64,000 nucleotides of DNA from Beggiatoa alba B18LD (GCF_000245015.1 NZ_JH600070.1:1695716-1759715); one strand, 5' to 3'. Counted from the first letter of the stretch, positions 16,337-22,492 are shown. Program-made: numbers and translations. The notes: generated by a model from the letters alone, not told the origin.

Positions 16337-17701
16337 ATGCCCAGCTTAAAAATTACCCGTCCTGATGGAACAGAACTCCCCATATCAGGCTACCACTACG
16401 AAAAACCCAGCGCACAAGCCAAAGCCTTCACCTCCCGCTTAGGCAACAAAAAACTCCCCGCCAAAGTTGACCTACGCCCCTACATGACCGAAGTCGAAGA
16501 CCAAAAAAATACCAGCAGTTGCGTTGCTAACGCCGTCGCAGGGGCTTACGAATACCTCGCAAAACGCCACCTTGGCGAAGACTCCTACAACGTCAGCCGC
16601 CTATTTATCTACTACAACGCCCGCTACTACCGCAGTTGGGAAAACGAAGATAAAGGCTCATTCATCGCCGATGCCATCAAAGGCTTAAGCGAATACGGGG
16701 CTTGCTCCGAAGAAACATGGGAATTCGACGTTAAATCCGTCACAACCGAACCCGACGGCGATGCCTACGACGAAGCCGCTAACTTCCTCGTAGAAAGTAC
16801 CGAACTACTACCCGTCGACCTCACCGCATGGAAATCCGCCCTTGCTGAAGGCAACCCGATTATTTTCGGCATTTCCCTCTTCAAATCCTTTGACTCCCAC
16901 AAGAAAAAAGGCTTAGTCCCCATGCCCTCCCCGCAAGAAACCGCCCGCGCCTCACACGGCGGACACGCAATGCTCTGCGTTGGCTACTCCGACAACGACC
17001 AAGTATTTATCGTCCGCAACTCATGGGGCAGTGACTGGGGCGACAACGGCTACTGCTATATACCCTACCGCTACCTGATTAACCCCCAACTTAACAGCGG
17101 TGATTGCTGGGTTATCAAACAACTAGACAACTTTGATATTGATGAATCCTCATGGTCAGACGATGACGAATCCGTCTTAGGCGACTGGGAAACCGAATTC
17201 GCCGACATGAGCGACGAAGACTATCAAGACATGCTAGAAGCCATGGGAGACTCCCCACTAGAATTGCGTCTTGCGATGATAATCATGTATGCCGCAGGTG
17301 CAGACGACGACATCAGCGATGAAGAAATGGCAGAAATCACCACCTATATGGATGGTTTCTTAGAACTGCTCGGCGTAGCAATGAAAACTGAGCGTTTATT
17401 ACGAAACGCACAAAAACAACTCAACAAAGATGAAGACGGCGAATTACTAGACGAATCGATTGATTTATTAGGCGAATACCTATCAGGCGAACTACTCGCG
17501 CGAATAGTCCAAGACATCGAAGCCATGATTGATGTCGATGATTTATCAGAAGAGGAAGAAGAATTTCTCAACGATTTAATCAGCCGTTGGCAAATTGAAG
17601 GCGATGAAGAAGACGAATCAGAAGACGACGACGAAGAATATGAGGAAGACGAGGACGAAGAAGAAGAAGAGGAAGAAGAAAAACCAAAAAAACGGCGATA
17701 A
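16337..17701 (+). CDS. Papain-like cysteine protease with TerB-like domain and acidic tail
   Basis: A 454-residue protein with no signal peptide, so probably cytosolic. Residues 40-262 form a C1A peptidase: Q56 and C62 (QKNTSSC), H210 (GGHAMLCVGY) and N228 (RNSWGSDWGDNGY) are all present. Residues about 290-420 are helical and resemble a TerB fold (LRLAMIIMYAAGADDDISDEEMAEI and a second half ending EEEEEFLNDLISRW). Residues 422-446 are almost only Asp/Glu, followed by KPKKRR. There is no recognisable propeptide of the usual inhibitory type. A regulated intracellular protease or a stress/defence role is inference; I know no close named homologue. Confidence 0.82.
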   Translation: MPSLKITRPDGTELPISGYHYEKPSAQAKAFTSRLGNKKLPAKVDLRPYMTEVEDQKNTSSCVANAVAGAYEYLAKRHLGEDSYNVSRLFIYYNARYYRSWENEDKGSFIADAIKGLSEYGACSEETWEFDVKSVTTEPDGDAYDEAANFLVESTELLPVDLTAWKSALAEGNPIIFGISLFKSFDSHKKKGLVPMPSPQETARASHGGHAMLCVGYSDNDQVFIVRNSWGSDWGDNGYCYIPYRYLINPQLNSGDCWVIKQLDNFDIDESSWSDDDESVLGDWETEFADMSDEDYQDMLEAMGDSPLELRLAMIIMYAAGADDDISDEEMAEITTYMDGFLELLGVAMKTERLLRNAQKQLNKDEDGELLDESIDLLGEYLSGELLARIVQDIEAMIDVDDLSEEEEEFLNDLISRWQIEGDEEDESEDDDEEYEEDEDEEEEEEEEKPKKRR

Positions 17702-17950: not shown

Positions 17951-19519
17951 TTATGGTTCAGATATTTGCTGACTTAACCGCGCCCAATAATTTAAGCCAT
18001 CCTGTCCCCAATCCTTCGCCAACTCCTCCAACGCCTGCAAGACTTGTGCATAACCAATCTTATGAGCAATTCGATACGCTTCTACAAATTTTGTGATTCC
18101 TTCCTGCACTTCCTCATTTTGTAAATGAATACGTCCCATATTAAACAACGTCGCACACAAGCCCGCCACATCGCCGATTTCTTGTTGAATCGCTAAGGAC
18201 TGTTGCAAGTAGCGCAGGGCGGTTTCGTAGTCGCCTCGGGCATAAGCCGTTGTTGCCATATTGTTGAGCGTCGCGCCTTCGCCACTTTTATCGCCGATTT
18301 CTTGTTGAATCGCTAAGGACTGTTGCAAGTAGCGCAGGGCGGTTTCGTAGTCGCCTCGGGCTGAATAGATAAGAGAAATATTGTTGAGCGTCGAGCCTTC
18401 GCCACGTTTATCGCCGATTTCTTGTTGAATCGCTAAGGACTGTTGCAAGTAGCGCAGGGCGGTTTCGTAGTCGCCTCGGGCTTGAAATATTTGAGAAATA
18501 TTGTTGAGCGTCGTGCCTTCGCTTTTTTTATCTCCCAATTCTTTGAAAATCGCTAAGGACTGTTGCAAGTAGCGCAGGGCGGTTTCGTAGTCGCCTCGGG
18601 CATGGGCGATAGTTGCCATATTGTTGAGCGTCGTGCCTTCGCCACTTTTATCGCCGATTTCTTGTTGAATCGCTAAGGACTGTTGCAAGTAGCGCAGGGC
18701 GGTTTCGTAGTCGCCTCGGGCATGGGCGATAGTTGCCATATTGTTGAGCGTCGTGCCTTCGCCACTTTTATCGCCGATTTCTTGTTGAATCGCTAAGGAC
18801 TGTTGATAGTTGGTTAGCGCAAGTTCTAAATTACCCAATGAATGATAAACCCGTCCAATATCATCTAAAATTCTGGCTAACTCGGCACTGTTAGGCGTGG
18901 ATTCATCTCGTAAACTGAATAATACTTTTAGCCAGCGTTGTTTTTCTGCTGTGCTCATACGCTCTGCCGCGTGAACTGCACTCTCTCTAAAGGCTTTTAA
19001 TTCTTCTTGTAAATAGGCATTTTTTTCAGTTTCAGGAATATCAAATTCATAAATAGCACTACGCCAGTCGAAAAAATCTAGGGCGGTTGTTGCTAATAAT
19101 TGCAAGGCGTATTCAGGTAGCCAGAAAAAAACACCTCGATTTAAGCGTTGGTATGCACTCCGTCGCCAATTTAATTGTTGTAACGTTTTAAATGCCGTTG
19201 TTTCTGTAACATCTTGGGGTTTATCAGGATTTGGGAGTAACACTTCTAAATCGTAAATAAAGATAGGAATATCAGGAGGATAATTTTCTAAAACTTGCTG
19301 TAATGCTTCATCCAATAAAATATTATTTAAATCATATTCTTGCTGTAATGTTTTAATGCTAATTTCTGCAATCGGCTGGTTAAATTTAGTTTTAATTTCA
19401 TCAATCAGTATCTGACGATAAGCCGTAGAATTACACCGAATAAAAAACAAATAAAAATGCCCTTGGTCACAACGACGAAGGGCACGCAAAAGACGGGGAA
19501 GCACTGCGGAATTGGTCAT
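17951..19519 (-). CDS. TPR-repeat protein, last gene of the four-gene operon
   Basis: A 522-residue soluble protein. Residues 1-165 form an alpha/beta domain without a P-loop; it includes IFIYDLEVLL and FFWLPEYALQLLATTALDFFDWRSAIYEFD. I recall similar regions at the head of TPR proteins linked to STAND-type ATPases, but cannot verify this. Residues about 205-480 are tetratricopeptide repeats; six consecutive 40-residue units (ARGDYETALRYLQQSLAIQQEIGDK...) are almost identical. Its start is two bases after the stop of the upstream ATPase, so the two are coupled. A sensing or partner-binding role is likely by analogy. Confidence 0.85.
   Translation of the reverse strand: MTNSAVLPRLLRALRRCDQGHFYLFFIRCNSTAYRQILIDEIKTKFNQPIAEISIKTLQQEYDLNNILLDEALQQVLENYPPDIPIFIYDLEVLLPNPDKPQDVTETTAFKTLQQLNWRRSAYQRLNRGVFFWLPEYALQLLATTALDFFDWRSAIYEFDIPETEKNAYLQEELKAFRESAVHAAERMSTAEKQRWLKVLFSLRDESTPNSAELARILDDIGRVYHSLGNLELALTNYQQSLAIQQEIGDKSGEGTTLNNMATIAHARGDYETALRYLQQSLAIQQEIGDKSGEGTTLNNMATIAHARGDYETALRYLQQSLAIFKELGDKKSEGTTLNNISQIFQARGDYETALRYLQQSLAIQQEIGDKRGEGSTLNNISLIYSARGDYETALRYLQQSLAIQQEIGDKSGEGATLNNMATTAYARGDYETALRYLQQSLAIQQEIGDVAGLCATLFNMGRIHLQNEEVQEGITKFVEAYRIAHKIGYAQVLQALEELAKDWGQDGLNYWARLSQQISEP
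18165..18830 (-). repeat. Tandem 120-bp repeat array inside the TPR gene
   Basis: The block CTTGTTGAATCGCTAAGGAC recurs exactly every 120 bases at 18181, 18301, 18421, 18661 and 18781, with a diverged version at 18541. Whole units differ by only a few bases, clustered in the segment encoding the first TPR helix. The 120-bp period keeps the frame, so copy number can change without breaking the protein. The near identity implies recent duplication or continuing gene conversion. Confidence 0.95.
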
Positions 19520-19521
19520 GT

Positions 19522-20841
19522 TTACGTTGATGGTGTCACGCTTAAAAGGGCTTTAATCGAGTCTAACTCTAAAACGGCAGGATGTAGTGCTTGCCACAAT
19601 TCGCCATTTTCATATTCTAAGATAACGCGGTTGTTGGTTAAACGGGCATAACTTTCCATGCTTTTATTCGGTTTTTTATAATAAACCGCTTGTAAAACTA
19701 ATTTATCATCATCGGTTAAGGTAATTAATTGGCGACTGTAAAACTTAATCAACGCACTTTTGGCATATTCGATATCTTCGTGCGTTACTTTTTCCGCATC
19801 CGTTTCTGTCACACTACGCAATAAAATCATTAAATCACGAATTGCACCACCGCTTAACTTAATCAGTTCATCAACATATTTTGTATCTTCAAAAAGGGTC
19901 TCAATATTCACCCGTTTTTTAATTAAATCGCGTAGAGTTTCCTTACCGTCTGAATTTTCCACTTTTACCATCGGCATCACCAACATGTCAGAAAATTCAT
20001 TTTTTAAGTTAGTTTGTGAGGCAAGTGTAATGGGTACAGTGTAGATAATATGGCTATTAACCCATTTTAACTGTTCTGCATGTAACATAAACAATTCATA
20101 ATGATTAGAATATTCTTGTTTTTGTGCAAACAACATTTTTTCCAAACCATCAACGATAATAACCAGACTTTTATAGCCTTGTTTTTGAATGCGTTGACGT
20201 GTTGCCGTAATTAAATTATTTAGATGAGCTTTGAAAACCGTTAAATCGTTTCCAATTTCTTTTCGAATAAATTCACGTCGAGTACTACTATTTTTCAAAT
20301 CATTTTTAAGTTTAGCCATCAACCCTCCAAAAAGGGATTTAATGCCTGCACTGGCTTCTGTTGTTAATTCTGCGCTTAACTCTATTTTTCTATCGGTTTC
20401 AATAATTTTTTTAGCAAACCAAGTATGTAAATTTTCTAATAATGCTTTATCTAATTCCCAACCTTTTTCTTCTAACTTCGTGTACAAGCTTTCTGCAATT
20501 GCTAATAGAACATCTTGATATTCAATATCATTCATTTCTAAAATGTCTTCAATATCAATGTACACAACAAAAAACTTTTGCGCTTCTAGCTCTGCCTTTA
20601 GCTGATGTAACTCTGTTGTTTTGCCACTCCCGCGATGTCCAGAAAATAACATGCTGAAATATTTATCTACATTCTGATTACGCTCGATATTCTTTGCAAT
20701 ATTACTAATCCAACTTTTACGTTGTCCCCGAACCCGCGATAAATCTTGATACCGTGAATCTTTTGCAGATGCTAAAGGGGTATCAGGGTCACACGCATGA
20801 TACATATCATCAATAGTAGAAACGGGGTAAGTTAATTTCAT
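19522..20841 (-). CDS. P-loop AAA/STAND-like ATPase of the four-gene operon
   Basis: A 439-residue ATPase. Walker A is GHRGSGKTT (residues 68-76), Walker B is SLVIIVDGLEKM (about 225-236), a sensor-like region follows at VNSHIIYTVPITL, and the C-terminal 70 residues look like a winged helix (ENGELWQALHPAVLEL). The layout matches Orc1/STAND-like NTPases that couple ligand or partner binding to a switch. Its start overlaps the TOPRIM gene end by four bases, and the TPR gene begins two bases after its stop. The ATPase plus TPR protein may act as one sensor unit; that is inference. Confidence 0.8.
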   Translation of the reverse strand: MKLTYPVSTIDDMYHACDPDTPLASAKDSRYQDLSRVRGQRKSWISNIAKNIERNQNVDKYFSMLFSGHRGSGKTTELHQLKAELEAQKFFVVYIDIEDILEMNDIEYQDVLLAIAESLYTKLEEKGWELDKALLENLHTWFAKKIIETDRKIELSAELTTEASAGIKSLFGGLMAKLKNDLKNSSTRREFIRKEIGNDLTVFKAHLNNLITATRQRIQKQGYKSLVIIVDGLEKMLFAQKQEYSNHYELFMLHAEQLKWVNSHIIYTVPITLASQTNLKNEFSDMLVMPMVKVENSDGKETLRDLIKKRVNIETLFEDTKYVDELIKLSGGAIRDLMILLRSVTETDAEKVTHEDIEYAKSALIKFYSRQLITLTDDDKLVLQAVYYKKPNKSMESYARLTNNRVILEYENGELWQALHPAVLELDSIKALLSVTPST

Positions 20842-21485
20842 AAATAATCCTTAAAAAATAATCTGTTGAACCAATTCACAAATGTTAAAGCTTCTGGTGT
20901 GTCATGGGAAAAATAGCGAGCTTTAATTGCCGTGCCAAAAGGTAAACCTGATTCTTTTTGCCATGCTAACCATGTATGTACGCAGGCTTTTATCTTATCT
21001 AGTTCAGAAAACATTGCGCCTTTTTTGCGTGCTTCTGCTGTTGCTTGTTGTGCATATTCCCAACAATAATCTTGTTCAGGTATCAAATAAGATAGAAAAT
21101 CTTCTAATTTACCAATTGTCTGATTATTCGGCATTAACCAAATACCTACACATTTGTTATTTAATGGGATAATTGTTCCTGCCTTGTCTGGTTCAGTTGG
21201 TAAAGAGACTGATAGCCCTAAATCGTTCATCACGGCGTTGATACGGTCGCAAACACTTTGCCAGCGATTTTCTACACTTAAATCTGCATCTAAAATAATG
21301 CCTATGCGTTCATATGATTTAATCGTAGTGGGTAAAGCAGTTAATGCTTCTGTCCAGCCTTTTGCATTGTCGATTTCTACCCGTGTTTTTTTGTTATTCC
21401 AATCAACCCCATGACGAGCCAGTAAATTGATAACGGTATATTGGTCATCAATCCCTTCAACAATTAGGCGTTTACCTGTGCTCAT
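20838..21485 (-). CDS. DUF3226/TOPRIM-like protein
   Basis: A 215-residue protein whose N-terminus reads VEGIDDQYTVINLL (E10, D13, D14), followed by GIILDADLSVENRW with D66 and D68. This is the glutamate plus DxD metal-binding pattern of TOPRIM nucleases. The middle part (VGIWLMPNN and GKLEDFLSYLIP) matches my recollection of the DUF3226 family. It overlaps the OLD-like ATPase gene by four bases upstream and the second ATPase by four bases downstream. In OLD and PARIS systems a TOPRIM domain is the nuclease activated by an ABC-type ATPase; the same pairing is proposed here. PARIS AriB belongs to DUF4435, so this is not a standard PARIS. Confidence 0.8.
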   Translation of the reverse strand: MSTGKRLIVEGIDDQYTVINLLARHGVDWNNKKTRVEIDNAKGWTEALTALPTTIKSYERIGIILDADLSVENRWQSVCDRINAVMNDLGLSVSLPTEPDKAGTIIPLNNKCVGIWLMPNNQTIGKLEDFLSYLIPEQDYCWEYAQQATAEARKKGAMFSELDKIKACVHTWLAWQKESGLPFGTAIKARYFSHDTPEALTFVNWFNRLFFKDYL

Positions 21486-22492
21486 CCGCGCACCTCAATA
21501 TGATGACGTGCTGCAATTTCTAATTCTTCACTGGAGTAGCGAATGGCTTGCGTTGCATTTGGTTCTACACGGTATAAAACAACTTCTTTTGCTAATTCTG
21601 GTTGGTCAGCTTGTAACCATGCTAAGGCACGTACACAATCGCTACTGTGTGTTGTTGCAAAGACTTGTACATTAAATTGTTTTGCTGTTTGTACGATAAA
21701 ACGCCATAAGTCTTCTATCACGCTGTAATGTAAACCCGTATCAATTTCATCAATTAATAAATATTTTCCTTCTGATTTAACTATATAGATGGCTAATCCT
21801 AATAATCGGCGAACGCCTTCCCCCATACTGCCTAGCGGTAATCTTTCTGTATTTTTTAGTTTAATAAAGACATTACCGCGATTTGAACTTGTAAATACAA
21901 TCCGTTCAAGTGTTGGTAAAACACTTAGTAAGGCTTCATAGACTTTTTCTTCAGCAGGGGTTGCAACAATGGAATCCCATAAACGTTGTAGTTGTTCATC
22001 ATTTGCGCCTGAAGTGCTTAAAAAAAGTGGCGATTTACTAAAATTTTTAATATCAATATGTCTATCATCATACATAAACTTTTCTAACGACATCGATAAG
22101 CTTTTTTCTAAATACGAGCTTTCTATTTGAACGGTTAATCGTTTTTCAAGCTCATCAGAGTTATCAATGAGGTTGAGTTTTATAAATTGTTTTTGTTGTT
22201 CGTTTCTCGCTATACCTGAGATTTGAAACCATGAGTTTACATCAAGATAATGTCCTGTAAATAAATGACTAATATCAATATAAGGAATGCCTAATGTTTC
22301 AATATATTCATTGCGTCTGTCCGAAGATTTTAATAAAACGCGCCAATGATTAGACATTAATATTTCTAACGCTTCTAAAATAGCGGTTTTGCCTGCATTA
22401 TTCCGCCCAACAAATAAATTAACTTGTCCCAATTCTTTAATATCAAAACAAGAAAAAGTACGGAAGTTTTCAATTTTTACATTGTGATACAT
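21482..22492 (-). CDS. OLD-like ABC-type ATPase, first gene of the four-gene operon
   Basis: A 336-residue SMC/ABC-type ATPase of the AAA_15/AAA_21 class. It begins with the typical IENFRTFSCFDIKELGQVNLFVG, then Walker A GRNNAGKT (29-36), signature region LGSMGEGVRRLL (about 220-231), Walker B KYLLIDEIDTGLH (243-255) and H-loop FATTHSSDC (278-286). It ends after the ATPase domain: the TOPRIM nuclease that OLD proteins carry in the same chain is encoded by the next gene instead. It is the promoter-proximal gene of the operon and divergent from murD. An anti-phage role is inferred from the architecture. Confidence 0.85.
   Translation of the reverse strand: MYHNVKIENFRTFSCFDIKELGQVNLFVGRNNAGKTAILEALEILMSNHWRVLLKSSDRRNEYIETLGIPYIDISHLFTGHYLDVNSWFQISGIARNEQQKQFIKLNLIDNSDELEKRLTVQIESSYLEKSLSMSLEKFMYDDRHIDIKNFSKSPLFLSTSGANDEQLQRLWDSIVATPAEEKVYEALLSVLPTLERIVFTSSNRGNVFIKLKNTERLPLGSMGEGVRRLLGLAIYIVKSEGKYLLIDEIDTGLHYSVIEDLWRFIVQTAKQFNVQVFATTHSSDCVRALAWLQADQPELAKEVVLYRVEPNATQAIRYSSEELEIAARHHIEVRG

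Follow-up and report, generated by a model that had tools for sequence, protein, structure and literature searches.

The window (i.e., the whole 64,000-nucleotide stretch of Beggiatoa alba B18LD DNA that was analysed) carries on its minus strand a tight row of four genes, here named A to D. Gene A (22492-21482, minus strand, 336 aa) encodes an OLD-like ABC ATPase of the PDC-M38A type, with its Walker A lysine at K35, and gene B (21485-20838, minus strand, 215 aa) encodes a DUF3226 TOPRIM protein of the PDC-M38B type with residues E10, D66, and D68. Gene C (20841-19522, minus strand, 439 aa) encodes a STAND-like AAA+ ATPase with K74, D231, R310, and a GGxxR motif (residues 331-335), and gene D (19519-17951, minus strand, 522 aa) encodes a degenerate AAA+ head fused to a TPR array. 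A and B are referred to below as cassette 1, and C and D as cassette 2. The head domain of D comprises residues 1-215 (18875..19519, minus strand), and its tandem TPR units, which are nearly identical to one another, occupy 18170..18805 (minus strand), where TRF reports about 5.3 copies of 120 bp (40 aa) each with an 89% match.

According to the ORF coordinates, A and B overlap by 4 bases, as do B and C, and a gap of 2 bases separates C from D, which confirms the strand, positions, and spacing of the original prediction. Upstream of the four genes lies murD, which is divergent, and downstream of them a gene for a papain-family peptidase, which is convergent with D. Of the window ORFs that reach about 600 bp, 33 in number, A, B, and C present the three lowest third-position GC contents (0.23-0.28, with a mean of 0.38), and within D the GC content is 37.5% in the head and 47.7% in the TPR part. 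The low GC of A, B, C, and the D head suits a recent acquisition, whether in one step or in two.

The ATPase-TOPRIM pair of cassette 1

The sequence of A contains a Walker A motif (GRNNAGKT), a signature-like motif (LGSMGEGVRR), a Walker B motif (YLLIDEID), and an H-loop (ATTH), and the protein matches Pfam AAA_15 with E=1.8e-29, in agreement with its earlier description as an OLD-like ABC ATPase possessing signature, Walker B, and H-loop. When A was compared with the PADLOC models, the top match was PDC-M38A (E=6e-72), with positions 1-335 of 336 in A aligned against positions 1-383 of 383 in the model. AbiLi (1.4e-53, full length), the AriA models (3e-30), and the GajA models are also matched, all of them behind PDC-M38A. 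B matches Pfam DUF3226 with E=1.2e-64, and its top PADLOC match is PDC-M38B (E=3.1e-49). A sequence search of solved structures yielded no useful match for B or for the D head, and no paper naming DUF3226 was found in the literature search.

The original prediction had described B as a TOPRIM-type protein with Glu and DxD residues, and had named a structure prediction as the test of its fold. The resulting model (pLDDT 93) presents an OLD-type TOPRIM fold, and E10 and D66-A-D68 supply the expected residues, so this description holds. In the fold comparison, the model obtained a Z score of 13.3 to PH0156 (2p62), 12.1 to the C-terminal region of Burkholderia OLD (6nk8; rmsd 4.4, 167 residues aligned), 10.1 to TsOLD (6p74; rmsd 3.0, 131 residues aligned), approximately 8 to retron Eco2, and 7.0 to the PARIS complex entry 8ux9. 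Residues E10, D66, and D68 are conserved among B homologues, except that 4 of 29 have N instead of D68.

PDC-M38 is the closest described system: both of its component models are matched by A and B as top match, and the two genes are adjacent with their 4-base overlap. It is itself a computational candidate, and no experimental paper on it was found in the literature searched. The original prediction knew of no named system with the four-part combination, but the A-B half is already catalogued in PADLOC. PARIS (AriA-AriB), which has been termed OLD class 4, its ATPase and TOPRIM parts being separate genes (PMC10568477), likewise pairs an AAA_15 ABC ATPase gene with a TOPRIM gene in the same order as A-B. 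However, its TOPRIM is DUF4435, whereas B is DUF3226, as originally stated, with no match to DUF4435 or to AriB in PADLOC. The AriA models do match A, at values well below PDC-M38A. AbiL (AbiLi-AbiLii) resembles the pair in A but not in B, which has no AbiLii match. Gabija also differs: GajA is a fused ATPase-TOPRIM protein accompanied by a UvrD-like GajB, whereas A and B are separate genes, and C and D have no match to a UvrD-like helicase. The fold of B, with its Glu and DxD, is as expected of the second protein of an OLD-type ATPase and TOPRIM pair. The assignment of A-B as an OLD/PARIS-type ABC ATPase with a separate TOPRIM protein is thus supported.

Given the fold of B and the published work on PARIS and OLD, B is a predicted nuclease, expected to cut DNA or tRNA under the control of A; according to PMC12409363, AriB of PARIS is a TOPRIM nuclease that cleaves tRNA. 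In mechanistic terms, A would bind ATP, dimerise or multimerise, and hold B, until a phage trigger freed or activated it. B would then cut either DNA, in the manner of OLD, or tRNA, in the manner of PARIS, so that phage growth would be stopped or the cell killed.

In every one of the 51 distinct B loci collected, which come from genomes and plasmids belonging to several phyla, the gene directly upstream of B is A. The presence of the pair is patchy, and it is also carried on small plasmids. In contig C283 of the relative G292, seven pairs of ABC ATPase and TOPRIM-type genes occupy about 15 kb (L165, 907-15931): four A-B pairs (PDC-M38) in tandem, one PARIS pair (AriA 9e-60, AriB 1e-41), one HEC-01 pair (1e-115 and 6e-75), and a seventh pair in which the protein accompanying the ATPase is weakly AriB-like. 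The same stretch also holds rplY and pth. At another locus, L021, 4 bases are shared between the A-B pair and an Eco57I-type restriction gene. Because of the tandem arrangement with PARIS and HEC-01 and the overlap with a restriction gene, A-B is probably an anti-phage ATPase-nuclease pair, and the neighbourhood in this relative strengthens the case for PDC-M38 as a real defence system. A role in DNA repair or recombination instead of phage defence is unlikely. It would agree with the resemblance of OLD-like ATPases to RecF/SMC proteins and with an archaeal OLD-class ATPase that acts in cell-cycle progression (PMC12796447), but the patchy distribution, the small plasmids, and the company of restriction, PARIS, and HEC-01 genes argue against it.

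Other A-B loci present a range of surroundings. In genome G486, two A-B pairs stand in tandem with overlapping genes (L166, 5213-8581), which is a second case of stacking. In Methylovulum (L018, 5085-9561), the pair is flanked on one side by a gene for an amidohydrolase, probably fhcA, and on the other by fhcD, which encodes formylmethanofuran formyltransferase; the same gene layout is found in a Methylococcaceae MAG (L029, 5173-9549). The A-B pair most closely related to that of the window, in genome G286 (L126, 3708-9970), is located directly downstream of an apparent rpoB, on a contig that ends soon after and shows no rpoC.

The ATPase-TPR module of cassette 2

C was originally described as a second P-loop ATPase, and this is borne out by its Walker A (GHRGSGKT, including K74) and Walker B (VIIVDGLE, including D231) motifs and by its assignment to Pfam AAA_22/AAA_16. 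The Walker A lysine and the Walker B aspartate are kept in all 23 of the C homologues compared, in which R310 is invariant and the GGxxR motif near-invariant. The Pfam nSTAND models match C weakly, and nSTAND_NTPase5 is found in 5 of the 23 C proteins. Against PADLOC, C has no match better than E=0.005, and the matches of D are to generic TPR models. The DS41_1 model matches 11 of the 23 C proteins remotely, that of the window included, with a best value of 9.7e-8, far below the family cut-off; the window C scores 28.5 bits against a cut-off of 370, hence it does not belong to the same family as DS-41 (DefensePredictor, PMC13092281).

D presents seven stretches matching Pfam TPR_12, and its head has no P-loop motif. 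The earlier reading of the head as a non-P-loop domain nevertheless needs correcting as regards the fold. The AlphaFold model of the head (pLDDT 88) has an AAA+ core, with Z scores of about 12 to NSF D2 and 11.7 to p97 D1, and Foldseek matches to NSF, DnaA, and Hda. The P-loop is absent in 25 of 25 homologues of the head, in which R120 and D148 are invariant. Judged from this model, the head is a dead AAA+ domain whose P-loop has been lost. The possibility of a new fold was considered and is ruled out by the AAA+ fold of the model. A profile comparison of the C ATPase with the D head detected no homology (hhalign probability 1.4%), so the two are linked at the level of fold only.

In 40 of 46 untruncated C loci, a D-type protein is encoded next after C on the same strand, and the two genes often overlap by 4 bases. 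The D homologues are between 262 and 757 aa long, and most of the others scanned contain tandem repeats at the nucleotide level whose copy number varies, a sign of fast change. As a family, C-D is absent from Pfam, PADLOC, and NCBIfam. It is a widespread and conserved, yet unnamed, two-gene module in which the AAA+ ATPase of one protein is active and the other protein carries a dead AAA+ head on fast-changing repeats.

The plan of the module is close to that of nSTAND2, a mobile operon of two genes for which a hetero-multimer ring was proposed by its authors (PMC8195603); of its two STAND NTPases, one is active and the other has lost the NTP-binding motifs. C retains its motifs in 23 of 23 cases and the AAA+ head of D has no Walker A in 25 of 25, which is a likeness in plan. 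The systems differ in their attachments: the inactive partner in nSTAND2 most commonly carries GT4 or HEPN effectors, whereas D-type proteins carry TPR, nSTAND1, or WD40. C-D is therefore probably a STAND-like sensor or switch, as the original prediction had suggested of its ATPase-TPR half. We infer its activity, its trigger, and the mixed ring as follows. D would sense a ligand through its fast-changing TPR array, while its dead AAA+ head would pair with active C in a mixed ring, probably lending R120; ligand binding by D would then alter the ATPase state of C and produce an onward signal. The chief weakness of this model is that a recognisable effector is missing from most C-D loci.

Several loci place the module in other company. 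On plasmid 4 of Calothrix sp. NIES-4101, C and the D-type protein are separated by a further C-type ATPase that bears a TIR domain at its C-terminus (L030, 7342-9435), an arrangement that suggests a TIR-effector version of the cassette. On plasmid p057_J of Nostoc sp. C057 (L138, 5264-8188), a SAV_2336-related region is fused in front of a C-type ATPase domain whose Walker A is intact, and the gene adjoins that of a MoxR ATPase, which connects C with conflict operons of the MoxR type. The D head of Nostoc and Acaryochloris is followed by an nSTAND1 NTPase and WD40 repeats, with TPRs between head and nSTAND1 in Nostoc, and on the Acaryochloris plasmid pMB06 the module stands beside NB-ARC/TIR genes.

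The TIR, MoxR, and nSTAND1-WD40 contexts point to conflict systems. Even so, there is a considerable possibility, short of an even chance, that C-D has no part in defence and is an ordinary ATPase of intracellular signalling or assembly, partnered by a TPR protein, given that the module often stands alone among housekeeping genes with neither effector nor defence neighbour, and that PADLOC offers little for either protein. This is opposed by the patchy presence, the variable sites, and the fast-changing repeat arrays, by the fusions and neighbours just described, and by the remote match to DS-41_1, a validated anti-phage protein, even though that match lies far below the cut-off. If the sensor reading is right, C-D is a plausible bacterial counterpart of inflammasome-like sensors, and it merits a study of its own.

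Association between the cassettes

The original prediction treated the four genes as one system, and named as its refutation that their homologues never occur together. Outside this genome that is what the loci show. No C or D was found at any of the 50 other B loci, and no A or B at any of the 48 other C loci, so that the window is the only one of all loci collected with A/B and C/D together. Two genome surveys gave no second adjacency. The survey of the order covered 43 genomes: a full-length C is encoded in 18, and in 14 of those a DUF3226 match exceeds the cut-off as well. The two are adjacent here only; in the other 13, the modules are on different contigs or, in the complete genome of the congener G278, more than 0.8 Mb apart (A-B near 3.26 Mb, C-D at 4.11 and 4.17 Mb). 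In the survey of the phylum, with 398 genomes, C is present in 10, B in 11, both in 3, and the two are adjacent in 1, which is this genome. A conserved four-gene operon was thus sought across contigs, plasmids, and 274 class, 43 order, and 398 phylum genomes, and it occurs in this genome only. A pairs with B and C pairs with D, and there is no pairing between the two; at the level of conservation, the single-system reading is refuted.

We therefore consider it highly probable that the locus consists of two independent, separately mobile cassettes of two genes each, which are stacked head to tail and probably share one transcript, with A-B as a nuclease pair and C-D as a switch. The 4-base overlap of B and C is of the kind found in functional operons, which speaks against stacking, and the low third-position GC shared by A, B, and C would also fit arrival as a single piece. 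Furthermore, many of the relatives are draft genomes, whose contig ends could hide some adjacencies. Elsewhere, though, both cassettes adjoin unrelated housekeeping genes, and at one locus (L124) about 20 bases separate the start of C from a MOSC-like gene, itself preceded by trpC, as named from the sequence. Since the cassettes sit this tightly against unrelated genes, close spacing is normal for such insertions and by itself says little.

The four genes could still act as one defence system, in which D would sense a phage product, C would make an ATP-dependent signal, and A-B would be the nuclease effector released by C-D. The common strand, the spacing of 4, 4, and 2 bases, and the similar base composition of A, B, and C would suit this, as would the need of most C-D loci for an effector from outside and the TIR-fused C paralogue of Calothrix, which demonstrates that effectors can join the module. 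Nevertheless, the absence of the arrangement from every other B and C locus, the separation of the modules in the complete congener genome, and the equally close insertions beside unrelated genes make it quite improbable. We also hold it doubtful, to a similar degree, that in this strain the C-D sensor has been joined to the OLD-type ATPase-TOPRIM pair and now controls it, the pair serving as a nuclease effector that can be swapped and that came from a different defence system. The reading of two stacked cassettes removes a false four-gene system from the list of candidates, and illustrates how tight overlaps let stacked cassettes pass for one operon.

The surroundings of the stack were also inspected. 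Promoter and terminator scans of the locus gave results at or near chance level. An empty site was sought in the congener G278, and no clean one was readable, as the flanking murD and ABC transporter genes are about 170 kb apart there. The papain-family peptidase next to D (16337-17701) has a long, acidic, low-complexity C-terminus, and its third-position GC (0.53) is the highest of the window ORFs compared.
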